From assembly GCA_017525225.1 (NCBI GenBank), contig JAFXTB010000146.1, positions 1 through 55,925 of the forward strand: DNA of 55,925 nt, written 5' to 3'. Origin of the DNA: Kiritimatiellia bacterium (lineage in GTDB: Bacteria > Verrucomicrobiota > Kiritimatiellia > RFP12 > UBA1067). Numbering within the stretch: the first letter of the stretch is position 1; every line of letters begins with the position of its first letter. Below are positions 20,301 to 33,000 of this stretch, one piece after another. A model generated the notes under the pieces. It ran no database searches. It was given only the letters and a program-made list of their open reading frames with translations, and was not told the origin of the DNA. The translations under genes and the position numbers were made by a program.

Positions 20301-20332
20301 GATTGTCAACAAAACAACACAATTTTGATGAC

Positions 20333-20959
20333 ATGAGAAAGAATGTTGAGAGTCTGGCGGAACGCATAATGAAACGGGTGTCGAGAATGCCCGCTGATGC
20401 GTGCTTTTCGCGAAGCGATTTTGCCTCTCTTGGGACGCGCCTGGCGGTCTCTCAGGCATTGTCGCGGTTGGAACGCGCGGGGATTCTGTCTTCGCCAGTG
20501 AGAGGATATTATTACCGTCGCCGCATGAGCAAGTTGCTTGGAGTTGAAATGCCTCCGGATTTTGCGGCGCTTGCCGCGGCGATTGCCCGCAACTCCGGCT
20601 GGACGATTATTCCCTGTGGCGACATTGCCGCCAATGATCTAGGCTTGTCAACTCAGGTTCCCGCTGTCTGGAGCTACGTCAGCACGGGACCGTATCGAAC
20701 GTACACGATCGGGAAGATGCGCCTTGAGTTCAAGCATACTGCCAACCGCGAGCTGTTCAACATGTCGAAGATGTCGGCATTGTGCGTACAGGCAATCAAG
20801 GCGTTTGGCAAGGATGGCGTAACGCCTGAAATGATCAAGCGCCTGGAACTGGTGTTGTCCAGTCGGGACAAGGATGCGTTGACGAAAGAAACCTCGCATG
20901 TGACCTCCTGGATTTATGATGTAATCAAACGGATAGGGAAGGAGAAGGATAATGCATGA
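20333..20959 (+). CDS. AbiEi-like antitoxin (DUF6088-type winged-helix protein)
   Basis: About 208 residues. The N-terminal part (IMKRVSRMPADACFSRSDFA, LAVSQALSRLERAGILSS, VRGYYYRR) is the winged-helix/'PaREP' type DNA-binding region found in AbiEi antitoxins and DUF6088 proteins. The rest is the conserved YVSTGPYRTYTIGKMRLEFKH domain. It overlaps the AbiEii-like toxin by eight bases, the classical type IV toxin-antitoxin order. The family's antitoxins also repress their own promoter. The start is placed at ATG 20333; an in-frame TTG at 20303 is possible but falls before the predicted transcription start. Confidence 0.8.
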   Translation: MRKNVESLAERIMKRVSRMPADACFSRSDFASLGTRLAVSQALSRLERAGILSSPVRGYYYRRRMSKLLGVEMPPDFAALAAAIARNSGWTIIPCGDIAANDLGLSTQVPAVWSYVSTGPYRTYTIGKMRLEFKHTANRELFNMSKMSALCVQAIKAFGKDGVTPEMIKRLELVLSSRDKDALTKETSHVTSWIYDVIKRIGKEKDNA

Positions 20960-21968
20960 TGTCGTCCGTATGCCGCCTGCGGAACTGAAAGAGCTGTTCG
21001 CGCTAACGGCCAAGCAGATGTCCATGTCGCCCGGCATTGTCGAAAAGGACTTCTGGGTGGTGTGGACGCTTGACTACCTGTTTGCGCGGTCGCCGTGGCG
21101 GACGCAGCTCGCGTTCAAGGGCGGAACGAGTCTTTCGAAGGCTTTTGGGCTTATCAAACGCTTTTCCGAGGACATCGACCTCATTCTCGACTGGCGGCTT
21201 CTCGGCTACGGGCTGCGCGAGCCGTGGGAAAAGCGCAGCAACACGCAGCAGGACCTTTTCAACGAGGCGGCGAACGCCCGGAGCGCGGCGTTCCTCAAGG
21301 ACGTGTTCTTGCCGCGTGTAAAGACCGATCTGGAATCGGAAAGCGGGCGGACGCTTGACATCGGCATGGACACGCTTGACCCGAACACGGTCGTATTCCG
21401 CTATCCGTGCGTGTTCGGCGAATCGTCGATCTTGCGTGAGATTCGGATCGAGAGCGGCGCGCTTGCCGCCTGGACGCCGGCGAAGACATGCGACATCGTA
21501 TCGTACGCCGCCGAGTATTACCCGCAGCTCTTCAAGAATCCGGCGGCGCACGTCTACACGGTTGCGCCCGAGCGGACATTCTGGGAGAAGGTTACTATTC
21601 TTCATCGCGAGGCGATGCGCACGCCCGAGCGGGGACTTCCGCCCGGACGCTATTCGCGGCACTACTACGACCTCTGGTGCCTCTGCCAGTCCGACGTGAA
21701 GGCGCGGGCGCTCGGCGACATCCCGCTTCTCGATGCCGTCGTCGCCTTCAAGCGCAAGTTCTACCGCTGCAGCTGGGCGCATTACGAACTAGCGACGGCG
21801 GCGGCTATCTCGCTCATGCCGCCCGAACATGCGCTGTCGGCACTGGAGTCCGACTATCGGCACATGCAGAACATGATTTTCGGTTCGCGACCGCCATTCT
21901 CCGAGATCGTGGATATGGTTCGCGACCTCGAGGCGGAAATTCACGGAAAAGATGCTCTCGTGAGTTGA
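20952..21968 (+). CDS. AbiEii/AbiGii-family nucleotidyltransferase toxin
   Basis: A 338-residue member of the AbiEii toxin family (formerly DUF1814), whose studied members are nucleotidyltransferases causing reversible growth arrest and phage abortive infection. Key motifs are EKDFWVVWTLDYLF (about 31-44), the nucleotide-binding FKGGTSLSKAFGLIKRF (55-71) and the metal-binding SEDIDL (D74, D76), followed by the usual mid-protein FLPR and late TFWEKVTILHRE and RHYYDLWCL segments. RBS GGAAGGAG. It directly precedes the restriction island and could be a separate defence module. Confidence 0.88.
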   Translation: MHDVVRMPPAELKELFALTAKQMSMSPGIVEKDFWVVWTLDYLFARSPWRTQLAFKGGTSLSKAFGLIKRFSEDIDLILDWRLLGYGLREPWEKRSNTQQDLFNEAANARSAAFLKDVFLPRVKTDLESESGRTLDIGMDTLDPNTVVFRYPCVFGESSILREIRIESGALAAWTPAKTCDIVSYAAEYYPQLFKNPAAHVYTVAPERTFWEKVTILHREAMRTPERGLPPGRYSRHYYDLWCLCQSDVKARALGDIPLLDAVVAFKRKFYRCSWAHYELATAAAISLMPPEHALSALESDYRHMQNMIFGSRPPFSEIVDMVRDLEAEIHGKDALVS

Positions 21969-22043: not shown

Positions 22044-22085
22044 TGGCAACATTGGAATTGGCAACATTTCCACATTGGCAACATT
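22044..22085 (+). repeat. Three direct repeats of TGGCAACATT upstream of a promoter
   Basis: TGGCAACATT occurs at 22044-22053, 22059-22068 and 22076-22085, spaced 15 and 17 bases apart, and ends 25 bases before an extended -10 box. The arrangement resembles a multi-copy regulator site. It lies in the 554-base gap between the AbiEii gene and the helicase. Confidence 0.55.
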
Positions 22086-22110
22086 CCCTCTACCCCGCCA
22101 GCGGAGATTT

Positions 22111-22119
22111 TGGTATAAT
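22111..22119 (+). promoter_or_regulatory. Extended -10 box in the helicase upstream region
   Basis: TGGTATAAT is a perfect match to the window's promoter type. The ATG six bases later opens only a three-codon frame, so this promoter would make a roughly 400-base leader or a small RNA ahead of the helicase operon. Confidence 0.5.
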
Positions 22120-22170
22120 TCAACATGCTTTGGTGAGGCAATCGCTAATCCAAGGCGACAAGCTTCGGGC

Positions 22171-22190
22171 AAGCGGCGCTTTCGCCGCTT
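22171..22190. repeat. REP-like hairpin, 8-bp stem
   Basis: AAGCGGCG, loop CTTT, CGCCGCTT. The core resembles palindromes found inside the helicase (23073) and DUF4391 (25831) genes. Confidence 0.5.
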
Positions 22191-22351
22191 TGTCCGGGGC
22201 AAACGACATAGCGTTCGGAACTGATCCGGAGCATCAACGGCCACCAAGCCGCGACATCCGCTTCCACCCCGGCGCGACCTAAATTTGCGTAACTGCAAAC
22301 TGGCGATTATCTGAAAACGTGAGAAATTTGACGAGTTGCCGAGTCTGTAGT

Positions 22352-22372
22352 GCGTGCCCATACAGGGCACGC
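22352..22372. repeat. Perfect 8-bp stem hairpin in the leader region
   Basis: GCGTGCCC, loop ATACA, GGGCACGC. It is stable and could act as a terminator or attenuator for the upstream 22111 promoter; TCTT follows but there is no long T-run. Confidence 0.5.
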
Positions 22373-22431
22373 TCTTCAACTTGGTTCATATTTCGTCAAG
22401 GCTATTCTCACGTGCCCCAGATAGATATGGA

Positions 22432-22460
22432 TTGAGGCGTTAGGGCGTTGCCCCTTTAAT
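22432..22460 (+). promoter_or_regulatory. Candidate promoter of the helicase-DUF4391-mod operon
   Basis: TTGAGG (22432-22437), a 17-base spacer and TTTAAT (22455-22460). The expected start near 22467 is followed within about 11 bases by a palindrome (22478-22493). Confidence 0.45.
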
Positions 22461-22477
22461 TTACCCAAATCCATTTT

Positions 22478-22493
22478 GATGGATCAATCCATC
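22478..22493. promoter_or_regulatory. Palindromic operator candidate upstream of helicase
   Basis: GATGGATCAATCCATC is a near-perfect dyad (7-bp arms, 2-bp centre) between the candidate promoter and the helicase start. A second hairpin (GTCCGT ... ACGGAC, 22495-22521) abuts the ATG and may hinder ribosome access. Confidence 0.4.
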
Positions 22494-22522
22494 GGTCCGT
22501 TCGCGGAAGCGCGCGACGGACG

Positions 22523-25500
22523 ATGACGATAAACACACAACAGGATTTCGCGGGAACGGAGACTCCCAAGACAATCGACAACGTGAGTTGTCGGTTGGGA
22601 GACGATATTGCCAGTTCCCTTGGGCCTGATTCGACAGTCTATGTCGCTTCCAGCGGGTTCTCGCTTTCCGCATTCGAGCATCTCGCCGACGAGCTGGAGA
22701 GGGTCAAGGCCGTCCGCTTCATCTTCACCGCGCCGACGTTCGTGCCGCAGGAAGCGGTCAAGGAGAAGATCAAGAAGGAGCGGCGCGAGTTCTTCATTCC
22801 CGGCGTGGGCGAGGCAAGCCTCCTCGGAACGGAGTACGAAATCCGTCTCCGCAACCGTCTCATGCAGAAGGCTGTCGCCAAGCGGTGCGGTGAATGGATC
22901 AGGAAAGGCAACGTCAAGTTTGCCTCCGTCGCCGAGTTCGGTCAGATTCAGGATATGTTCATCGTCGAGACGGAGGCTGGCAGCATCGTCTATATTCCGT
23001 TCGGCGGTTTCACGGCGGATACGCTCGGCTACGAGCGCGGACAGTATTCCTCGGCCATCTCCACCCGCTTATGCGGCGCTTACGCCGCGCCGTTCAGGAC
23101 GCGCTTCGGCGAGGTGTGGGCGGGCGGCGGGCTTCGGGACGTGACCGAGCAGCTTGCGGAACACATTTCCACCGTCTATCGCGACAACGAGCCGGAGCTT
23201 GTGTACTTCCTCGTCCTCAAATACCTCTTCGAGGAGGCGTTGAAGGACTTTGACGAGGACACGATGCCGAACGCCGCCGTCGGCTACGAGGACACGCTCG
23301 TTTGGAAGAAGCTCTTTGACTTCCAGCACGACGCGGCAATCGCCATCATCAACAAGCTGGAGAAGTATTCCGGCTGCATCCTCGCGGATTCCGTCGGACT
23401 CGGAAAGACATTCACCGCTCTCGCCGTGATCCGCTACTACGAACTCCGCAACAAGAACGTCCTCGTCCTCTGCCCGAAAAAGCTGGAGTCGAACTGGAAC
23501 GTGTACAACAAGCCGATGTACCGCAACAACCCGTTCGCCGCCGAGAAGCTGCGCTACGACGTCCTGTGCCACACGGACATCCAGCGCGAACGCGGACAGT
23601 CGAACGGACTCGACCTCGCCAAGGTGAACTGGGGCGGCTACGACCTCGTGGTGATCGACGAGTCGCACAACTTCCGCAACGACAAGGGCGACTACCTCGA
23701 CAAGGAGACGCGCTACCAGACGCTCATGCGCAAGGTGATGCGCGAGGGCGTGAAGACGAAGGTGCTGATGCTCTCCGCCACGCCCGTGAACAACCGCTTC
23801 AACGACCTCCGCAACCAGCTCCGCCTCGCCTACGGCGGCGGATCGGACGAGATGAACAGGACGCTGGGTGCGGGCTCGCGCACCGTGGAGGCCATCTTCC
23901 GCGACGCGGAGCGCGCGTTCGACGCCTGGACGGACGACGAGTCCGGCCCCCGGACGGCGGAGGCGCTTTTCAAGGTGCTGCCGTCGGACTTCCTCGAACT
24001 CCTCGACGCCGTGACGATCGCCCGCTCACGCAAGCACATCGAACGGTTCTACGACACCTCCGCCGTCGGCAAGTTTCCCGCCCATCTTCCCGCGCAGAGC
24101 GAGCAATGCCCGATCTCCACCGATCCGGACGCGGTCAAGATCAAGGAACTCAACGACGCGCTCATCGCGCGCTCGTTTTGCGTCTATACGCCGACGATGT
24201 ACATTCTGCCCAGCCGCAAGCAGCACTACGACGACCTCACGGCGACGCACACGCGGCGCGGCGGCACGATCCACCAGGAGGGACGCGAGTACACGCTCAA
24301 GAACCTCATGGTCATCAACGTGCTGAAGCGCCTTGAAAGCTCCGTCTACTCCTTCCGTAAGACGCTCACCGGCATACTCGCAAAGAACGAGTCGCTTCTC
24401 CGCGTGCTGGAATCCGGCGGCAGCATCGACTTCGGCGGTGGCGGCGAAGAGGCGGAGGGAATGGACGATGAGGACGAAATCTCCGCGCTCGCAGTCGGCA
24501 AGCATTCCATCGACGTGAAAGACCTCGACGTGGAATCTTACAAGCGCGACCTCAAGGCGGACATCGTTGCGTTCAGAGACATTCTCGCCAAGATCGAACC
24601 CATCGACCCCGCGCACGACGCGAAGCTGAAACGCCTGAAGGAGATCATCGCCGCGAAGGTGGATGCCCCGTTCAACGATGGCAACAGGAAACTGCTCGTC
24701 TTCTCCGCATTCGCAGACACCGCCGCCTATCTCTACCACGAGCTTGCGCCCGTGCTGAAGCGCGAGCTCGACGTCGACTGCGGCATCGTGACGGGCAAGG
24801 ACACGCCGAGGGCGACCGTCAAGCTCGACGCGCCCGACTTCCAGGAGGTGCTGTCGCGCTTCTCGCCTATGTCGAAGGAACGGCCAGATTTCAATACGCC
24901 CGACGGACACATCGACGTCCTCTTCGGCACGGACTGCATTTCGGAAGGACAGAACCTACAGGACTGCGACTGCGTGGTCAACTACGACATCCATTGGAAT
25001 CCCGTCCGCATCATCCAGCGCTTCGGGCGCGTTGACCGCATCGGCACGAAGAACGCATCCGTCAAGCTCGTCAATTTCTGGCCGGACATCGACCTCAACG
25101 AGTACATCGACCTCACCGACCGCGTGAAGAACAGGATGCAGGCGGTGAACATCGCGGGAACCGGTCACGACAACCCGCTCGCCGAGGGTGACGACGTGGG
25201 CTTCCGCGACGAACCACTATCACGTATGAAGGGCGGCGAGATCGTCGATATGGAGTCGCTCAAGACGGGCGTCTCGATAACAGACCTCGGCCTCAACGAA
25301 TACGCGCTGGCGCTCAAGAAGTACATGGAGGAGCATCCCGGCCTCTCCAGCGTGCCGCCGGGGATCAACGCCGTCATCGAGGCGAAGCCGGACGAGGGGC
25401 TTGTGCCGGGCGTCGTGTTCTTCCTGCGCAACCGCGACGAGAAACTCAGAAACGAGGCGAACTACTTTCACCCGTTCTACGCCGTGTATCTCGCAGCGGA

Positions 25501-25813
25501 CGGATCGGTCATTAAGGACTCCACGCAGGGCAAGCAGATCGTCGAGCTTCTGCGCAAGGGATGCGAGGGCAAGAGCGAACCACTCGCCGCCCTGTGCAAG
25601 GCGTTCAACAAGGAGACGAAGGACGGGTTCAAGATGGACGCCTACTCCGCGCTCCTCTCAAAGGCAATCGACGCCATTTCCGAGCAGAAGGCCGAGGGGG
25701 ACGTCGAATCGCTTTTCAACTCGACCGAAACGACCGCGTTGCAAGGCGATTGTTCGCACATCGACGCCTTCGAGCTTGTGGCATTCTTCGTGGTGAAGGA
25801 GGCCGTGGCTTGA
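22523..25813 (+). CDS. Snf2-like (superfamily 2) helicase of an expanded type III restriction locus
   Basis: A 1096-residue SF2 ATPase. Residues 1-250 form an N-terminal region resembling the phospholipase-D-like domain of defence helicases (IQDMFIVETEAGSIVYIP, then GGFTADTLGYERGQ), but I see no HKD catalytic motif. The helicase core has Walker A ADSVGLGKTFTALAV (about 289-296), motif II VVIDESHNFRN (about 379-382), motif III LMLSATPVNNRF and the C-terminal lobe GTDCISEGQNLQDCDCVVNY with QRFGRVDRIGT (about 832-842). It is followed by DUF4391 (TTGA overlap), Mod and Res, so it probably works with the restriction system, perhaps translocating on DNA. A short palindrome (23073-23088) sits in frame at about residue 184. 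Confidence 0.88.
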   Translation: MTINTQQDFAGTETPKTIDNVSCRLGDDIASSLGPDSTVYVASSGFSLSAFEHLADELERVKAVRFIFTAPTFVPQEAVKEKIKKERREFFIPGVGEASLLGTEYEIRLRNRLMQKAVAKRCGEWIRKGNVKFASVAEFGQIQDMFIVETEAGSIVYIPFGGFTADTLGYERGQYSSAISTRLCGAYAAPFRTRFGEVWAGGGLRDVTEQLAEHISTVYRDNEPELVYFLVLKYLFEEALKDFDEDTMPNAAVGYEDTLVWKKLFDFQHDAAIAIINKLEKYSGCILADSVGLGKTFTALAVIRYYELRNKNVLVLCPKKLESNWNVYNKPMYRNNPFAAEKLRYDVLCHTDIQRERGQSNGLDLAKVNWGGYDLVVIDESHNFRNDKGDYLDKETRYQTLMRKVMREGVKTKVLMLSATPVNNRFNDLRNQLRLAYGGGSDEMNRTLGAGSRTVEAIFRDAERAFDAWTDDESGPRTAEALFKVLPSDFLELLDAVTIARSRKHIERFYDTSAVGKFPAHLPAQSEQCPISTDPDAVKIKELNDALIARSFCVYTPTMYILPSRKQHYDDLTATHTRRGGTIHQEGREYTLKNLMVINVLKRLESSVYSFRKTLTGILAKNESLLRVLESGGSIDFGGGGEEAEGMDDEDEISALAVGKHSIDVKDLDVESYKRDLKADIVAFRDILAKIEPIDPAHDAKLKRLKEIIAAKVDAPFNDGNRKLLVFSAFADTAAYLYHELAPVLKRELDVDCGIVTGKDTPRATVKLDAPDFQEVLSRFSPMSKERPDFNTPDGHIDVLFGTDCISEGQNLQDCDCVVNYDIHWNPVRIIQRFGRVDRIGTKNASVKLVNFWPDIDLNEYIDLTDRVKNRMQAVNIAGTGHDNPLAEGDDVGFRDEPLSRMKGGEIVDMESLKTGVSITDLGLNEYALALKKYMEEHPGLSSVPPGINAVIEAKPDEGLVPGVVFFLRNRDEKLRNEANYFHPFYAVYLAADGSVIKDSTQGKQIVELLRKGCEGKSEPLAALCKAFNKETKDGFKMDAYSALLSKAIDAISEQKAEGDVESLFNSTETTALQGDCSHIDAFELVAFFVVKEAVA

Positions 25814-26463
25814 CGGCATTCCCCCAGAGCGCCGCTTACGGCAAGAAGATTCCTTTCGCCACGTTGAGGCGGCAGGGTATCGCACCGCGCTATGGTGACT
25901 ACATCAAGTCGCTCGTCTGGGCGTACAAGTTGAGTCCCGAGACGATGCAGCTTGCCGCGACGGATTCCGTCAAGGAAATCGAGGTGATGGATCTCGCCGT
26001 GAAGGACAAATGCTCCGGGTTGCGCTCGCTCGCCGCCGTCATTTCTGCCCTCGACAAGATCATACCGAGTCCGCTGATCTTCCGTGTGTTCGACGAAGAG
26101 GGGCGGGCGCTCAAAATCGCATTCAACCTCAAGACGTCCGGCGGCGTGGCGCATGGCGACAGCGAAGTGTTCCGGCTGTTCCACACGGATGAGACCGACC
26201 TTCCCCTGCCGCAGGGCCTTACCACGCTGGAGTCGTTCTACAAGCGCTTCGCGGTGGCGGTCGATGGCATGACGACATCTCCAGACGAATCGCTGCGCGA
26301 CCTCGACGCACGGCACTACCGCCTTGAATCGCTGAACGCCGAACTTGCGGACATCGAGAAGAAGATTTCAAAGGAAGTGCAGCTCGACCGGAAGTACGCG
26401 CTCGCCAAGGAAAAGCAGACAATTGTGAAGGAGATCAAGCAATGCCAGAACTCGAAAAAGTGA
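25810..26463 (+). CDS. DUF4391-family protein
   Basis: A 217-residue protein whose sequence (YIKSLVWAYKLSPETMQL, EIEVMDLAVKD, IPSPLIFRVF, LKIAFNLKTSGG) fits my recollection of the DUF4391 family, which accompanies Snf2-type helicases and type III methyltransferases; its biochemical role is unknown to me. The C-terminal 50 residues are a predicted coiled coil (LNAELADIEKKISKEVQLDR). The TTG at 25810 is chosen because it overlaps the helicase stop as TTGA; longer upstream readings run through the helicase gene. It overlaps mod by 22 bases. It may be an adaptor between helicase and methyltransferase (inference). Confidence 0.7.
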   Translation: MTAFPQSAAYGKKIPFATLRRQGIAPRYGDYIKSLVWAYKLSPETMQLAATDSVKEIEVMDLAVKDKCSGLRSLAAVISALDKIIPSPLIFRVFDEEGRALKIAFNLKTSGGVAHGDSEVFRLFHTDETDLPLPQGLTTLESFYKRFAVAVDGMTTSPDESLRDLDARHYRLESLNAELADIEKKISKEVQLDRKYALAKEKQTIVKEIKQCQNSKK

Positions 26464-28331
26464 AATGCTCGACGCCTGATTTCGCGAAGGAGAACGCGAA
26501 GAAGCTGCTCGCTTTGTTCCCTGAATGCGAGGGACAGAGGGGAGAGGTTGACATCGACAAGCTCCGCCAGGTGTTGTCCTCTACGGCCATCGAGGGCAAC
26601 GTGGAACGCTACCAGTTCACATGGCCGGGCAAGCGCAACGCAATGGCGGCGGCGAGCGCGGCAACCACAAAGACCCTGCGCCCCTGTGCGGCGGAAAGCG
26701 TCGGCAGGGATGGAACGCCCGGCGGCTTCGATTCGGAGAACCTCTACATTGAGGGCGACAATCTCGAAGTGTTGAAGCTCCTCCAGACGAGCTACGCGGG
26801 CAAGGTGAAGATGATCTACATCGACCCGCCTTACAACACGGGACACGATTTCGTCTATCGCGACCGCTTCTCACTTACGCAGAAGGAGCTTGATGACAAT
26901 GCCGGCGCGTTCGACGAGGACGGCAACCGATTCGAGGTCAACGACTCCGCCGAGGCGCGTTATCATTCCAATTGGTGTTCGATGATGTATCCGCGCCTGA
27001 AACTGGCACGAAACCTTCTCCGTGATGATGGCGTGATTTTCATTTCGATTGACGATAATGAGGTGGCGAATTTGCGAAAGTTGTGCGATGAGGTGTTTGG
27101 AGAGCACAACTTTGTTGCAAATTTTCTTTGGAAAAAGAAAGGAACAACGTCAAATGTTGAAGGCGCAGAGGTTAGCTCATTGACAGACGCAACACTTTGC
27201 TACAAGAAATCGGAAACTGCGCACATTCATCCACGTGTTAAATCTAAAGAATGTCGCTCTTACCCGCTTCACGATAAAGAGGGGAAATATCGACTTACAA
27301 TAATTGAGAAGAAGGATACTGGAGATTACAAGCGAGATTCAATGAAATTCCAGATTATTGGCCATGCCCCAAGAGAAGGAAAAAGATGGCAGATAGGAGC
27401 GGACAAGGCAAAGGCGCTTGAGGCGAAGGGACGATTCGTATTTGACGGCGAAAAGGTTCAACTCAAAATTTATGATTTTGAAGACAAAGATACAACATCA
27501 GCTTGGCCAAATTTGTTTGATGATTGCGGCTCGTCAGATTCTGCTTCTCAGATGGTAAATCAAGACATAATGGGAGGAGCAGGCATATTTGACACTCCGA
27601 AACCAATAGAATTACTATTAAGGATATTGCTACTTAGTTCTGATGATGATTCAATTATTCTCGATTTCTTCTCTGGTTCAGCGACGACAGCCCATGCGGT
27701 GGTGCAGTTGAACGCAGAGGACGGCGGTTGCCGCAAGTTCATAATGGTGCAGTTGCCAGAACCGTGCGATGAAGATAGCGAGGCGGCGAAGGCGGGTTAT
27801 GCGAACATCTGCGAGATCGGCAAAGAGCGCATCCGCCGTGCGGGAAAGAAGATAGCCGAAGAGAATGCGACAATCGCGCCTAACCTCGACATCGGCTTCC
27901 GCGTTTTGAAGCTCGACACTTCATCCCTCCGCGATACGTCCGCAACGGTAAGCGAGACGAATCAGGAGTTCGCCAACTTTGAACGTGTCCGTTCTGATCG
28001 TTCGGCAGAGGACTTGCTCTTCCAGATGCTGCTTGAAACGCACATCCCGCTTTCAGAGCCGATTGTGAAGGCGAAGGTGTCGGGGAACGAGGTGTTGTTC
28101 GTGGGTATGGAGGCGGCGCGCTCGGCGAGCGCGCCCTACCAAAATGCGCCGCTGGCCGCGTGTCTTGATGCGAAGGCGAAGATGACGACGGAGTTCTTCA
28201 TCGAGATCGCGAAGCTCAAGCCGGGCATCGCGTTCTTCCGCGACGACGCCTTTGTCGATGATTCCGCGCGAACGAACCTTCAGCAGGTCTTCAACCAGTT
28301 CTCGCCCACGACGAGCATTAAGGTGATTTAA
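26442..28331 (+). CDS. mod: Type III DNA methyltransferase (Mod subunit)
   Basis: Site-recognising N6-adenine (beta-class) methyltransferase of a type III restriction-modification system. In the 629 residues the catalytic motif DPPYNTG (from D128) precedes the SAM-binding motif FFSGSATTAHAV (about 408-419), the beta-class order. The target-recognition region between them (about 205-405) is clearly AT-richer than the flanks, suggesting a swapped domain. Near residues 558-570 the peptide EAARSASAPYQ is encoded by a perfect hairpin repeat followed by CTACCA, matching a noncoding copy at 34111. Strong RBS AAGGAG; overlaps DUF4391. The stop codon overlaps that of the convergent vapC. Confidence 0.93.
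   Translation: MPELEKVKCSTPDFAKENAKKLLALFPECEGQRGEVDIDKLRQVLSSTAIEGNVERYQFTWPGKRNAMAAASAATTKTLRPCAAESVGRDGTPGGFDSENLYIEGDNLEVLKLLQTSYAGKVKMIYIDPPYNTGHDFVYRDRFSLTQKELDDNAGAFDEDGNRFEVNDSAEARYHSNWCSMMYPRLKLARNLLRDDGVIFISIDDNEVANLRKLCDEVFGEHNFVANFLWKKKGTTSNVEGAEVSSLTDATLCYKKSETAHIHPRVKSKECRSYPLHDKEGKYRLTIIEKKDTGDYKRDSMKFQIIGHAPREGKRWQIGADKAKALEAKGRFVFDGEKVQLKIYDFEDKDTTSAWPNLFDDCGSSDSASQMVNQDIMGGAGIFDTPKPIELLLRILLLSSDDDSIILDFFSGSATTAHAVVQLNAEDGGCRKFIMVQLPEPCDEDSEAAKAGYANICEIGKERIRRAGKKIAEENATIAPNLDIGFRVLKLDTSSLRDTSATVSETNQEFANFERVRSDRSAEDLLFQMLLETHIPLSEPIVKAKVSGNEVLFVGMEAARSASAPYQNAPLAACLDAKAKMTTEFFIEIAKLKPGIAFFRDDAFVDDSARTNLQQVFNQFSPTTSIKVI
28115..28135. repeat. REP-like hairpin inside mod
   Basis: GGCGCGCTC, loop GGC, GAGCGCGCC, followed by CTACCA. 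The same design (9-bp stem, GGC loop, CTACCA tail) is seen at 34111-34131 outside genes. Here it is read in frame. Confidence 0.75.
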
Positions 28332-28738
28332 GGTGAGATGATGTTGAGTGATGGGAAGAGCGCGCGAAAATCATCTGCATTGCGGGTGATGAGTCCGTCG
28401 TTGGCCTGTGCGAGCGCGCCAATCATCACGTCGGCGACGGGGCGTCTCGCAGCCTTGCCGGAACGTTTGCGTTGGATATGGTTGTTCCAGGCAGCGTGGG
28501 CGAGCGAGAGATCGTCTTCACCGAGAATTGGCGGAAGGTCTATTCCAATCTCAAAAAGAAAATCGCGTTCGCGTGCCTCGTCGCCGAGAAAGGCGGGCGA
28601 AAGCTCCACATACGTGAGCGGCGAGATGATGAGCCCGCCTTCGGCGTATTGGTCGATTACTTCTGCAGATGCGACGCCGAAAGTAGGATCGCCTTGGAGG
28701 ATGTCGAGAATGACGCATGTGTCGACGACCATGCTCAT
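28328..28738 (-). CDS. vapC: PIN-domain toxin, VapC-type
   Basis: A predicted Mg-dependent ribonuclease toxin of 136 residues. The PIN acidic residues are visible: D6 in MVVDTCVILD, E45 in LTYVELSPAF, D103 in RPVADVMIGA and D122/D123 in ITRNADDFRALFP. VapC toxins usually cleave tRNA or rRNA. It is downstream of vapB with a four-base overlap and converges on mod so tightly that the two stop codons overlap (TTA/TAA). This is an intact type II toxin-antitoxin module lying inside a restriction operon. Confidence 0.9.
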   Translation of the reverse strand: MSMVVDTCVILDILQGDPTFGVASAEVIDQYAEGGLIISPLTYVELSPAFLGDEARERDFLFEIGIDLPPILGEDDLSLAHAAWNNHIQRKRSGKAARRPVADVMIGALAQANDGLITRNADDFRALFPSLNIISP

Positions 28739-28992
28739 GGCTCTTCACCCTCGCGGAGTTCCTTCATCCATTCGGCCGTTGTGCGTGGCTTGCTGTATGT
28801 CGCAGCATAGCCGAGCATGGCCCGTGCACCTTTGCGCACGGGCTTGCGGACAATCGTTATCACGCAGGTGTAGCGGTCCTGCCCTTGATTCCACAGCAGC
28901 GTCGTTCCGGGCGTCATCTGCATGGATTCACGGATTGAGGCAGGAATTGAGACCTGACCGCGTTCAGTCACTTTTGTCACCAAGGTTTTCAT
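28735..28992 (-). CDS. vapB: AbrB/MazE-type antitoxin, VapB
   Basis: An 85-residue swapped-hairpin antitoxin starting MKTLVTKVTERGQVSIPASI, the AbrB/SpoVT fold, with a C-terminal toxin-wrapping tail (TAEWMKELREGEEP). I place the start at the ATG at 28992 rather than 29004: the 29004 codon lies inside the predicted -10 box, whereas 28992 is seven bases after it, matching the leaderless arrangement seen at other genes. Antitoxins of this family autoregulate through palindromes, and an 11-bp inverted repeat overlaps the promoter. Confidence 0.88.
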   Translation of the reverse strand: MKTLVTKVTERGQVSIPASIRESMQMTPGTTLLWNQGQDRYTCVITIVRKPVRKGARAMLGYAATYSKPRTTAEWMKELREGEEP

Positions 28993-29028
28993 GCCAGACA
29001 TCATACATCATGTCTGGCATCATGTCAA
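28991..29028 (-). promoter_or_regulatory. vapBC promoter with overlapping 11-bp inverted-repeat operator
   Basis: On the minus strand TTGACA (29023-29028), a 17-base spacer and TATGAT (29000-29005) form a near-consensus promoter. ATGCCAGACAT (28991-29001) and its exact complement ATGTCTGGCAT (29010-29020) flank an eight-base centre, covering the -10 and the vapB start. This is a convincing autoregulatory operator. It ends 20 bases before the divergent res start. Confidence 0.82.
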
Positions 29029-29040
29029 GAGGGTGATTTG

Positions 29041-32000
29041 ATGAAACTTCAATTTAAGAACCAGGTGTTCCAGGAGGCGGCGACGGCCGCCGTGTGCGAC
29101 GTGTTCGAGGGGCAGCCGTACCACGACCCAAATGTGTATACGGTCGATCCGGGAAAGGTAGTGGCTAGTAGTCAGTTGTCAGTGGCTAGTAGTGAAGTCT
29201 CTCTTCCGGGGTTTGAGACATTGCAACAGGCAACACTCGAATTGCCGGATGATCCGCCGGACGTGGGGTACAAGAACGCAGAGATCGAATTGCCGTTGGA
29301 CGTATTGCGCAAGAACCTACATGCCGTACAGGATCGGCAGAATTTTGAGCATTCGGTGATTAACGCCTCGCTTCCCGAGTTGGAAGTCGAGATGGAGACT
29401 GGAACGGGCAAGACGTTCGTGTACATCAAGACGATCTTCGAGTTGAACAAGCGGTACGGCTGGTCGAAGTTCATCATCATCGTCCCCGGCATAGCCATTC
29501 GCGAGGGCGTGAAGAAGTCGCTCGACATCATGTCTGACAAGTTCCTCGCCGACTACGGCAAGACGGCGAAGACTTACGTGTACAACTCCGCGCACCCGCA
29601 GGACGTATTGGACTTCTCGACGAATGCGGACATCCAGGTGCTCGTGATGAACGTGCAGGCGTTCAACGCCAGGAGCGAAGCGGCGCGTCGCATCTACATG
29701 GAACTCGACGAATTCGCCAGCCGCAAGCCCATTGACATGATCGCGGCGAATCGTCCGATCCTCATACTCGACGAACCGCAGAAGATGGAAGGGCGGGCGA
29801 CGAACGAGATGTTGCCGAAGTTCAATCCGCTGATGATTCTGCGCTACTCGGCGACGCACAAGACGATCCGCAATCTTGTTTATCGGTTGGATGCCATTGA
29901 CGCGTTCGAGCAGAAACTCGTGAAGAAGATCGAGCCGGTGTGCATTGACGTGTCAAACCGGGCGGGCGTGTACGAGTATGTCTATTGTTCTGAGATACGT
30001 CCGGGGAAGAGTGGTCCGGAGGCGGTGCTGGAGTTTCAGGTACAGCGCAAGACGGGGCAGATCGTCAACGAGACGCGCATCGTCCGGAAGGGCGACGACC
30101 TCTATCAACTTTCCAATAAGATGACGGTCTACAAGGATCGCTACCGCGTCATCGACCTCGGCGCCAAGGACGGGTACGGGAAGATCGAGTTCGAGAATGG
30201 TCTGACTCTCATGTCGGGGCAGGTAGCGGGCGACGTTACCGAGAAGGAGCTTCGCCGCATCCAGATACGCGAGGCGGTGAAGGCGCATCTCGACAAGGAG
30301 GTGCAGCTCTTTCCGCAGGGCGTGAAGGTACTGACGCTTTTCTTCATCGACAAGGTGGCGAACTACCGCGTCTATGCCGACGACAACGAGGGAACGAGCG
30401 GCGAATACGCCGTTATGTTCGAAGAGGAATACAGGCGGGCGATAAACGAGAGGCTGTCCGTCCTTGCAGGAGTGGGCATAGACCCTGCGCTGAAGAAGTA
30501 CTGGGAGGGAATCGATGCCGCCAAGACGCACTCTGGATACTTCGCCGAAGATAAGAAGCACCGTCTCGTCGATTCCAAGGACGGCAAGGAGAGCGAAAGC
30601 GACACAAGCGCCTACGACCTCATCCTCAAGAACAAGGAACAGCTCCTGTCGCTTTCGGAACCTGTCCGGTTCATCTTCTCACATTCCGCGCTGCGCGAGG
30701 GCTGGGACAACCCGAACGTGTTCGTGATGTGTCCGCTCAAGAAGCCCGATACGGGGAACGACGTCTCCCGGCGTCAGGAGGTGGGGCGTGGTCTGCGCCT
30801 CTCGGTGAACCAGAGCGGCGAACGGCAGGACGAACCGGCGACCGTCCACGACATCAACATCCTCACCGTGGTCGCGAACGAGGAGTTCTCCACCTACGTC
30901 AACGGTCTGCAAACGGAGATCATGGCGGCATGCGCCCGGCGTCCCGTGCTTGCGGACGCGGACTTCTTCAAGGGCAAGGTTCTCAAGGCTGAGATCGAGG
31001 TCAAGAAGACCGTGGTCGAGAACGGGAAGACGGTCGAGAAGACGGAGAAGGAAATCGTCACGCACGTCGTTACCGAGGCCGAGGCGAAAGCACTCAACAA
31101 GTGGCTCTACAAGAACGACTTCATTGACGACGGCGACAACGTTCTGCCCGCTTGGCGCGAGGCGCGTGACGCGGGGACGATCCCCGAACTGCCGCCGACG
31201 CTCACGAGCCTCACGCCGTTCGCGGAAGAGGTCAAGAAACTGGTTGATTCCGTTCGCGATCCGAACGCCATCAAGAAGTTTACGGAGACAAAGCGTCCCA
31301 AACCGCTCACGACGAACAAGAACTTCGCAAAGGACGAGTTCAAGGAGCTATGGAAGCGTATCAACCACAAGGCGGCGTACACCGTGGATTTTTCGAGCGC
31401 CGAGTTGATCAAGAAGGCCATCGACGCCCTTGACAGGCAGATCGACATCCCGAAGCTCACCTACACCGTCAAGAAGGCGACGCAGACGGCGGGCAACGCC
31501 TTTGCCGCCGGCGTACACGAGTCGCACAAGGTTGATGAGCACTACACCGACACGGGAATCAAGTACGACCTCATCGGAAAGGTCGCCGAGGGAACTGTCC
31601 TCACGCGCAAGACCGTGAGAGACATCCTCGCCGGAATGCAGAAGTTCCGCTTTGACCAGTTCAAAAACAACCCGGAGAAGTTCATCGCCGAGGTGATCCG
31701 CATCATCAATGAGCAGAAGGCGACGATGATTGTTGAGCATATCCAGTACCACATCCTTGAGGACACGTATTCAAGCGACATCTTCACCAAGAACCAGATG
31801 ATTCTTCCGGCGCAGATGACGCCGATTCGCGACGACGGCAAGCCGCTCCAGAAACACATCTACGACTTCCTTACGACCGACTCGTCCGGCGAGAAGGCTT
31901 TTGCAAAGGAACTGGACAACTCGGCGGAGGTCGTGGTGTACGCCAAGTTGCCGGGTGGCTTCGCCATTCCCACGCCGCTTGGAAGTTACAACCCCGACTG

Positions 32001-32229
32001 GGCGATTGCGTTCAAGGAGGGATCGGTCCAACACGTGTATTTCGTTGCCGAGACGAAAGGCTCGCTTTCGGAACTCCAGCTCCGTGAAATTGAGAAGGCG
32101 AAGATTGCCTGCGCCAAGAAGTTCTTTATATCCCTCGGCGTCAAGGGCACGCAGTACCATGTGACGTACAGGAAGGTCGCCTCGTACACAGACCTCATGA
32201 ACATGGCCAATTCGGAGAGTAGTGATTAG
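29041..32229 (+). CDS. res: Type III restriction endonuclease (Res subunit)
   Basis: ATP-dependent restriction subunit, partner of Mod, about 1062 residues. It has Walker A METGTGKTFVYI (about 117-128), motif II LILDEPQKMEG (about 241-251), late SF2 motifs SHSALREGWDNPNVF and RRQEVGRGLRLS, and a C-terminal PD-(D/E)xK nuclease visible as NPDWAIAF and YFVAETKG (about 984-1006). Residues of about 40-51 (VVASSQLSVASS) are encoded by a tandem repeat also found over the stop codon. The ATG at 29041 has GAGGG upstream; a TTG at 29038 is adjacent. It is separated from mod by the opposing vapBC, so it needs its own transcription or read-through. Confidence 0.93.
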   Translation: MKLQFKNQVFQEAATAAVCDVFEGQPYHDPNVYTVDPGKVVASSQLSVASSEVSLPGFETLQQATLELPDDPPDVGYKNAEIELPLDVLRKNLHAVQDRQNFEHSVINASLPELEVEMETGTGKTFVYIKTIFELNKRYGWSKFIIIVPGIAIREGVKKSLDIMSDKFLADYGKTAKTYVYNSAHPQDVLDFSTNADIQVLVMNVQAFNARSEAARRIYMELDEFASRKPIDMIAANRPILILDEPQKMEGRATNEMLPKFNPLMILRYSATHKTIRNLVYRLDAIDAFEQKLVKKIEPVCIDVSNRAGVYEYVYCSEIRPGKSGPEAVLEFQVQRKTGQIVNETRIVRKGDDLYQLSNKMTVYKDRYRVIDLGAKDGYGKIEFENGLTLMSGQVAGDVTEKELRRIQIREAVKAHLDKEVQLFPQGVKVLTLFFIDKVANYRVYADDNEGTSGEYAVMFEEEYRRAINERLSVLAGVGIDPALKKYWEGIDAAKTHSGYFAEDKKHRLVDSKDGKESESDTSAYDLILKNKEQLLSLSEPVRFIFSHSALREGWDNPNVFVMCPLKKPDTGNDVSRRQEVGRGLRLSVNQSGERQDEPATVHDINILTVVANEEFSTYVNGLQTEIMAACARRPVLADADFFKGKVLKAEIEVKKTVVENGKTVEKTEKEIVTHVVTEAEAKALNKWLYKNDFIDDGDNVLPAWREARDAGTIPELPPTLTSLTPFAEEVKKLVDSVRDPNAIKKFTETKRPKPLTTNKNFAKDEFKELWKRINHKAAYTVDFSSAELIKKAIDALDRQIDIPKLTYTVKKATQTAGNAFAAGVHESHKVDEHYTDTGIKYDLIGKVAEGTVLTRKTVRDILAGMQKFRFDQFKNNPEKFIAEVIRIINEQKATMIVEHIQYHILEDTYSSDIFTKNQMILPAQMTPIRDDGKPLQKHIYDFLTTDSSGEKAFAKELDNSAEVVVYAKLPGGFAIPTPLGSYNPDWAIAFKEGSVQHVYFVAETKGSLSELQLREIEKAKIACAKKFFISLGVKGTQYHVTYRKVASYTDLMNMANSESSD
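29158..29193 (+). repeat. AGTGGCTAGTAGT-type tandem repeat inside res
   Basis: Two copies of AGTGGCTAGTAGT separated by CAGTTGTC. It is translated in frame as a Val/Ala/Ser-rich insert. A related block overlaps the res stop at 32217-32253. Confidence 0.65.
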
Positions 32230-32253
32230 TTGTTAGTGGCTAGTGGTTAGTGG
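32217..32253 (+). repeat. TAGTGGCTAGTGGTTAGTGG-type repeat over the res stop codon
   Basis: The block begins inside the last codons of res, supplies its TAG stop and ends just before the RadC gene. It shares the core TAGTGGCTAGT with the internal res block at 29158. Confidence 0.65.
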
Positions 32254-32259
32254 AGCGAT

Positions 32260-33000
32260 ATGGGCAAGAAGCTCGAAGATAAGGACAAAAACAACTTCCA
32301 GAACCTCGCGGACGAGCTGAAGCCCCGCGAGCAGATGGCGTCGTTGCCTTCGGTGACGATGATGTCCTCTTCGTCGCTTCTTGCCATCATGCTCGGCCAC
32401 GGCGTGAACGGAATCAACGTGCTGGAGCTTTCCAACCGCCTCATCACGGCGTTCGGTTCCGCAACGGAGCTTGCCAAGGCCGACTGGCGCATGGTGATCG
32501 AGCGCGTGAGGGCGTACAACGAGGAGCATCCCGAAGCGCCGATCAAGGGAATCGGCAAGGTGCGTGCGCAGACCTTGTGTGCGGCGTTCGAGTTCGTCCG
32601 CCGCGCCTACGACGCGCATGACGAGGATTTTAAGACGCGGCCCGTGACAAGCTCGGACATCGCCTACGACCTTTTCAGGCGGGCGTTGCCGCCAAACACA
32701 AGGCAGGAGACATTCTTCGTCTTGCCGCTTGACGTGAAGGGCTGTCCGCTCAGTCTGCCAATCCCGGCCACAAAGGGCGTGGTCGATCAGGCTCCCGTCC
32801 ATGCGCGGGAGATACTCAAGCACGCCATCAGCTGGGGGGCGAAGTCCATCATCGTGGCGCACAACCACCCGACCGGCGACCCGACGCCCAGCGAAGAGGA
32901 CATCGCCGTGACGGCGCAACTCAAGTCCGCCGCCGAGATAGTTTCAATCCCGCTTAAGGCACATCTGGTATTAGGGGATGATCGTTACTATGTGTTATGA
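32260..33000 (+). CDS. radC: RadC-family JAMM/MPN-domain protein
   Basis: A 246-residue RadC homologue. An N-terminal helix-hairpin-helix-like region (about 30-115, with IKGIGKVRAQTLCAAFEF) is followed by the JAMM metalloprotease-like domain: ETFFVLPLDVKG, VHAREILKHAI and the zinc motif HNHPTGDPTPSEED (H201, H203, D214). The name comes from a historic repair phenotype; the true function is unclear, and RadC genes are frequent on mobile and defence islands. It lies 30 bases after res, probably in the same transcript. Confidence 0.88.
   Translation: MGKKLEDKDKNNFQNLADELKPREQMASLPSVTMMSSSSLLAIMLGHGVNGINVLELSNRLITAFGSATELAKADWRMVIERVRAYNEEHPEAPIKGIGKVRAQTLCAAFEFVRRAYDAHDEDFKTRPVTSSDIAYDLFRRALPPNTRQETFFVLPLDVKGCPLSLPIPATKGVVDQAPVHAREILKHAISWGAKSIIVAHNHPTGDPTPSEEDIAVTAQLKSAAEIVSIPLKAHLVLGDDRYYVL

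Follow-up and report, generated by a model that had tools for sequence, protein, structure and literature searches.

What does a Snf2-type helicase gene, together with a gene for a DUF4391 protein, do in one operon with mod and res? Type III restriction-modification systems are marked by an asymmetric recognition site, methylation of one strand, cleavage about 25 bp away and a requirement for two sites. The operon was analysed in a 55,925-nt stretch of DNA from a Kiritimatiellia bacterium (contig JAFXTB010000146.1; referred to as the window), and its relatives were collected from other genomes, plasmids and viral contigs.

Organisation of the operon

The window is one entire contig of a 4.2 Mb genome assembly in 180 contigs. 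An expanded type III locus had been placed at 22044-33000 by the original prediction, which was made from the DNA letters. The quartet of helicase, DUF4391, Mod and Res genes was present as claimed, all on the forward strand (22523-32229), but the operon begins at 22523, not at 22044.

The first gene (22523-25813, +) encodes a Snf2-type SF2 helicase of 1096 aa, in agreement with the earlier description. It matched the PADLOC ‘HKD+Snf2’ profile (E = 8e-124, aligned only from profile position 164 onward), and its motor motifs were intact (Walker A GLGKT, DESH, SATP and QRFGRVDRIG). The DUF4391 protein (25810-26463, +; 217 aa) is translated from a TTG start that sits within the helicase stop as TTGA, giving an overlap of 4 nt, and its reading frame overlaps that of Mod by 22 nt; both overlaps were exactly those noted before.

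Mod (26442-28331, +; 629 aa) matched the PADLOC MTase_III profile (E = 3e-195) and has the DPPY and AdoMet motifs by which it was assigned to the beta-class N6/N4 amino-methyltransferases. Its target-recognition region spans aa 216-405 (27087-27656, +). Res (29041-32229, +; 1062 aa), the type III restriction subunit, comprises an ATPase and a C-terminal PD-(D/E)XK nuclease, and matched the REase_III profile (PADLOC, E = 2e-278) and PF19778, with the motifs GTGKT, DEPQ, QEVGRGLR and PD...ETK intact. Its start was assigned to an ATG one codon past the listed TTG. Both genes are on the same strand and are neighbours but for a 0.7-kb vapBC insert.

Since Mod and Res retain all of the type III motifs tested, the locus is, as judged from its sequence, a type III restriction-modification system in a widespread variant with four genes, and present evidence does not suffice for the earlier suggestion of a distinct defence system.

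Conservation across genomes

Helicase and DUF4391 would look like unrelated genes if they rarely accompanied mod and res, and co-occurrence was examined from three starting points. In 388 genomes of the phylum, DUF4391 was searched with E < 1e-20 taken as a strong hit, and the surroundings were examined for a same-strand helicase (up to 2 kb away) and for Res (up to 11 kb away). Twenty strong hits were obtained, 17 with the helicase beside them and 19 with Res near. The other three were accounted for by a helicase split over two frames, by a decayed locus with mod in pieces and by an incomplete DUF4391 close to the end of its contig. Starting from Res in the same genomes, about half of 53 Res places had a helicase or DUF4391 nearby; the remainder were ordinary-looking Mod-Res pairs, some of them near contig ends. 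Mod-Res has no general need for the pair, because about half of the Res loci in the phylum do without it.

With the helicase as the starting point, 156 loci were collected (80 from genomes and 76 from viral contigs), of which 117 were complete enough to judge. These loci were picked by similarity to type III-linked helicases and measure gene order rather than frequency. The order helicase-DUF4391-Mod-Res was found in all 117, and helicase and DUF4391 overlapped by exactly 4 nt in 53 of them. According to record titles, hosts belonged to about ten phyla, among them Pseudomonadota, Actinomycetota, Bacillota, Bacteroidota, Verrucomicrobiota, Kiritimatiellota, Planctomycetota, Acidobacteriota (Pyrinomonadaceae), Thermodesulfobacteriota and Campylobacterota. 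The same quartet was present on annotated plasmids and on the chromosome of E. coli CFT073; it occurs in named cultivated hosts, among them Methylotuvimicrobium alcaliphilum 20Z (NC_016108.1), where its genes can be removed singly. In a tree of Res sequences the helicase-linked members clustered (3 label changes; shuffles averaged 8.5), the tree having been built by a quick method and including one ‘unlinked’ row that lies at a contig end.

Because the same order is kept across about ten phyla, the two extra genes belong to the restriction machine as far as gene neighbourhood and sequence can tell, and the prediction that they are a conserved part coupled to mod and res held up. The quartet or its helicase was also common on plasmids and viral-classed contigs (L032, the 112 kb IncFIB plasmid pLAO18 of E. 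coli; H213-H215; IMG/VR L226-L301) and was present in a few phage records. Two Mod genes stood in tandem ahead of one Res in L186, L204, L207, L214, L231 and L294, an arrangement that may give double specificity.

The closest relative found was locus L146, from a Kiritimatiellae MAG of goat omasum, with a helicase 97% identical to that of the window. Between the two loci dN/dS was 0.09 for the helicase, 0.15 for DUF4391 (aa 1-195), 0.15 for Res and 0.08 for Mod outside aa 216-405. These low values indicate that all four genes are maintained. The recognition region of Mod was swapped between the two, with identity down to about 5 residues per 30-residue block in mid-region. Helicase and DUF4391 are under purifying selection and tolerate a change of Mod specificity. 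At L146:12891-13307 DUF4391 ends differently at its C-terminus and is separated from Mod by about 340 additional bp, so that the 22-nt DUF4391/Mod overlap is absent although the helicases are 97% identical.

The helicase N-terminus

The helicase had been described as having an N-terminus that resembles PLD domains and apparently lacks HKD. This domain (about aa 20-245; 22580-23257, +) has lost the H and the K of HxK. In an alignment of type III-linked relatives the two positions were mostly Q and F, and none of 150 helicases with a downstream Res, that of the window among them, had HxK/GSxN. A sister lineage, whose N-terminus can be aligned with that of the window helicase, has the classical motif intact (‘LHGKMYH...GSSNFTVxGLGL...ELNL’); it was present in 12 of 12 sister helicases with a very large Eco57I-type methylase ORF downstream. 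For residues 1-260, the structure prediction (mean pLDDT 76.6) had SauUSI and the NgoAVII R-protein as its top PDB matches (Foldseek probability 1.00). The absence of the motif from all 150 helicases, taken with these matches, indicates a predicted PLD fold without the catalytic motif throughout the type III branch. Both parts of the earlier description were thereby upheld, HKD loss by sequence and the PLD fold by predicted structure.

The DUF4391 protein

The DUF4391 protein of the window scored 76.6 bits against PF14335 (Pfam gathering cut-off 29.9). It is a divergent member: of the residues conserved in the family (P5, K16, E56, D82, K106, E189 and Q191), the invariant K16 is replaced by F and the conserved K106 by N. 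The AF2 model (mean pLDDT 85.6, pTM 0.78) consists of an alpha/beta domain followed by a long helical hairpin and had no confident match in the PDB. Foldseek gave weak, scattered matches, a few of them to restriction-endonuclease-like folds (best E = 0.019), VIA-align gave matches mainly over the helical hairpin, and a search of the viral structure library returned nothing under E = 0.001. A nuclease role is not claimed for DUF4391, given the weak and scattered Foldseek matches and conserved residues that give no clear PD-(D/E)XK signature.

The N-terminus of the sister methylases scored weakly as DUF4391 in Pfam (E = 4e-4 and 8e-3). When this region was compared with DUF4391 by hhalign, the probability was 80-83% (E about 1e-5), against at most 9% for control comparisons with other methylase windows and with parts of the helicase, Mod and Res. 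With moderate confidence, these profile comparisons point to a remote homology between DUF4391 and the N-terminus of the sister methylases. One branch has DUF4391 as a free protein next to the helicase and the other has it fused to a methylase, which suggests that it links motor and methylase.

One further fusion was noted at L163:13270-15432 (+), where a DUF4391 domain (aa 11-221) is joined to a stretch of about 500 aa that matched nothing in Pfam. In plasmids of Listeria, DUF4391 carries only the annotation ‘hypothetical’ but was detected by Pfam and by the family profile. A search of the open-access literature for ‘DUF4391’ returned one paper, by its title and abstract unrelated to restriction, and a description may exist outside the texts covered. 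The quartet gives this domain of unknown function a functional setting.

Comparison with known systems

The type III enzyme EcoP15I is reported to have the architecture Mod2Res1 (PMC4490356). The window locus shares with it Mod and Res genes that are adjacent, on the same strand and complete in all tested motifs; it differs in the addition of two conserved upstream genes, for the predicted nuclease-dead PLD-Snf2 helicase and for DUF4391.

Extra helicases in type III loci have been reported. Murray et al. (2021) described an additional helicase encoded 5' of mod in two three-gene m4C type III systems, Eco86II and BspHIV; the Snf2-type helicase is assigned no role there, and the arrangement is noted in >500 genomes (PMC8259958). 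The same paper gives a helicase-mod spacing of only about 140 bp for BspHIV and describes the helicase of this class as dispensable for methylation and undetected in a partially purified fraction of Eco86II that cuts (PMC8259958). In strain NCTC86, a helicase-Mod-Res locus was located at 5046030-5055447 and presumably represents Eco86II, given the strain and the gene order. It encodes a DrmD-like helicase without a PLD domain and a Mod of 1040 aa, and no DUF4391 was found in this interval. An extra Snf2-type helicase gene 5' of mod is shared with the window. However, in Eco86II and BspHIV the helicase directly precedes mod, whereas DUF4391 intervenes in the window, and the PADLOC families differ: MTase_III PDLC03646 and REase_III PDLC03654 at the presumed Eco86II locus, and PDLC01075 (helicase), PDLC03634 (Mod) and PDLC03647 (Res) in the window. 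Membership of the window system in the Eco86II class was ruled out on these grounds. The different families and DUF4391 together make the four-gene system a second, separate class of type III systems with an extra helicase, one with a dedicated partner, DUF4391. Annotation tools, whose present output is a type III pair plus a stray helicase, could call a single four-gene subtype.

SauUSI and NgoAVII/CglI are described as ATP-dependent PLD restriction enzymes that combine a PLD domain with an SF2 helicase (PMC4267653). The window helicase likewise joins a predicted PLD-fold domain to an SF2 motor, but it is without the catalytic HxK, and cutting is presumably left to Res.

The sister pairs of an HKD-Snf2 helicase and an Eco57I-type methylase (PADLOC C3a139 ‘HKD+Snf2’) are closer. 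Their helicase is homologous over its full length and their methylase has the DUF4391-like N-terminus; in contrast to the window, the PLD motif is intact, the methylase is of the gamma class (NPPY), Mod-Res is absent and the DUF4391-like domain is fused to the methylase. PADLOC may also name an ‘RM type HNS’. The sister loci (L115, L118, L122, L125-L129, L276, L277, L281 and L291) encode methylases of 1200-1610 aa; genes for Fic, Schlafen or DUF1016/YhcG often separate helicase and methylase or lie next to them.

DISARM (DrmD) and Type-2 BR also pair a Snf2 helicase with a methylase, and Type-2 BR further resembles the window in an N-terminal HKD domain on the helicase and a small DUF protein (PMC12839542). 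The partners are different: DrmA/DrmB in DISARM, a DUF499 ATPase and DUF3780 in Type-2 BR (PMC12839542). The window helicase scored 127 bits against the DrmD model (cut-off 610), and a scan of ten window proteins for DISARM partners gave no DrmB and, for DrmA, just a weak match to the helicase. Searches of the open-access literature on HKD-Snf2 combinations and on accessory helicases of type III systems returned context papers only; a description may lie outside the texts searched.

Proposed mechanism and alternatives

The best explanation overall, to which we assign a probability of roughly one half, is that Mod and Res act as a type III enzyme and that DUF4391 docks the nuclease-dead helicase on Mod as a second motor. 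A short site would be recognised and methylated by Mod, and unmethylated DNA would be cut by Res through its ATPase and PD-(D/E)XK nuclease, as in EcoP15I. DUF4391 most likely tethers the helicase to Mod in a physical complex, with DUF4391 as the adapter. In this way Mod would bring in a second ATPase, able to move on the bound DNA or to remodel it. The helicase would influence restriction either by aiding cutting by Res or by enabling the cutting of targets that Mod2Res1 handles poorly. Helicase and DUF4391 probably derive from an independent two-gene module, a PLD-helicase nuclease with a DUF4391-methylase fusion, which would have joined Mod-Res, ceded cutting to Res and lost its nuclease while retaining motor and adapter. 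Evolution presumably ran in this direction, from PLD-helicase module to type III quartet, and the sister helicases that still carry the nuclease motif are a plausible source.

The second-motor reading is favoured by the conserved order, the coupling, the loss of the PLD motif, the DUF4391-like domain of the methylases, the selection on the genes, the clustering in the Res tree and the Mod2Res1 architecture. Against it count the Res loci without a helicase (about half in the phylum) and, by analogy, the Eco86II-class helicase, which is reported as dispensable for methylation and undetected in the cutting fraction. The lack of the family residues K16 and K106 in the window DUF4391 and the remoteness of its probable homology to the methylases also count against it.

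A more specific form of this reading can be put forward only tentatively. Mod would serve both Res, the cutter, and a DUF4391-docked, nuclease-dead Snf2 arm that senses or clears DNA states that Mod2Res1 alone cannot restrict (single sites, ends, protein-coated or replicating phage DNA), the arm having evolved from a complete restriction-modification module by loss of its nuclease.

Alternatively, helicase and DUF4391 could be a separate defence or DNA-damage-sensing module (HamAB- or DrmD-like) that shares the operon, with methylation by Mod as nothing but the self mark. This would suit the sister lineage, in which this kind of helicase can work with another methylase and without Mod-Res, and the many Mod-Res loci of the phylum that do without the pair. 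We consider it unlikely, since no complete stand-alone helicase or DUF4391 was encountered in the type III branch, the helicase no longer carries its own nuclease and DUF4391 has no recognisable effector fold.

The pair might also control Mod-Res, by limiting self-damage or by tuning methylation against restriction, for example by clearing stalled Mod-Res from host DNA. A nuclease-dead Snf2 motor is suited to remodelling, the pair comes first in the operon, and it is conserved while the recognition region of Mod is swapped, a moment at which host DNA is unprotected. Descent from a PLD-helicase nuclease points to restriction rather than control, however, and many Mod-Res pairs lack helicase and DUF4391, so a controlling role also appears improbable.

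That the two are unrelated passengers is hardly credible: their absence from about half of the Res loci of the phylum and the tendency of the operon to gather such genes are outweighed by the order in 117 of 117 loci from about ten phyla, the 4-nt coupling, the purifying selection and the Res-tree clustering.

Passenger genes and neighbours

Of the 117 loci, 65 had additional genes within the operon; most of these genes sat between Mod and Res, and almost all shared the operon strand. They include Schlafen AlbA_2 with HATPase_c_4, RhuM, GmrSD, Fic, Abi_C and BRO-N. The vapBC pair of the window (28328-29004, -), unusual for its opposite strand, is one such insert; it consists of a VapC-like PIN toxin gene (28328-28738, -) and a MazE/AbrB-like antitoxin gene (28735-29004, -). 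A RadC family protein is encoded next to Res (32260-33000, +). Both had been counted as members of the locus, and both were ruled out as parts of the system: among 156 related loci, VapC was found in 1 (L146) and RadC in 6. Immediately 5' of the operon (20303-21968, +) is a DUF6088/AbiEi-like and AbiEii pair, a type IV toxin-antitoxin of the phage abortive-infection type.

A search for repeats within the locus gave one short repeat and no others. It is of the type AGTTGTCAGTGGCTAGT, with 2 matches against 0.03 expected; one copy lies inside the Res frame (29166-29193, about aa 43-53) and the other across the Res stop (32220-32247).
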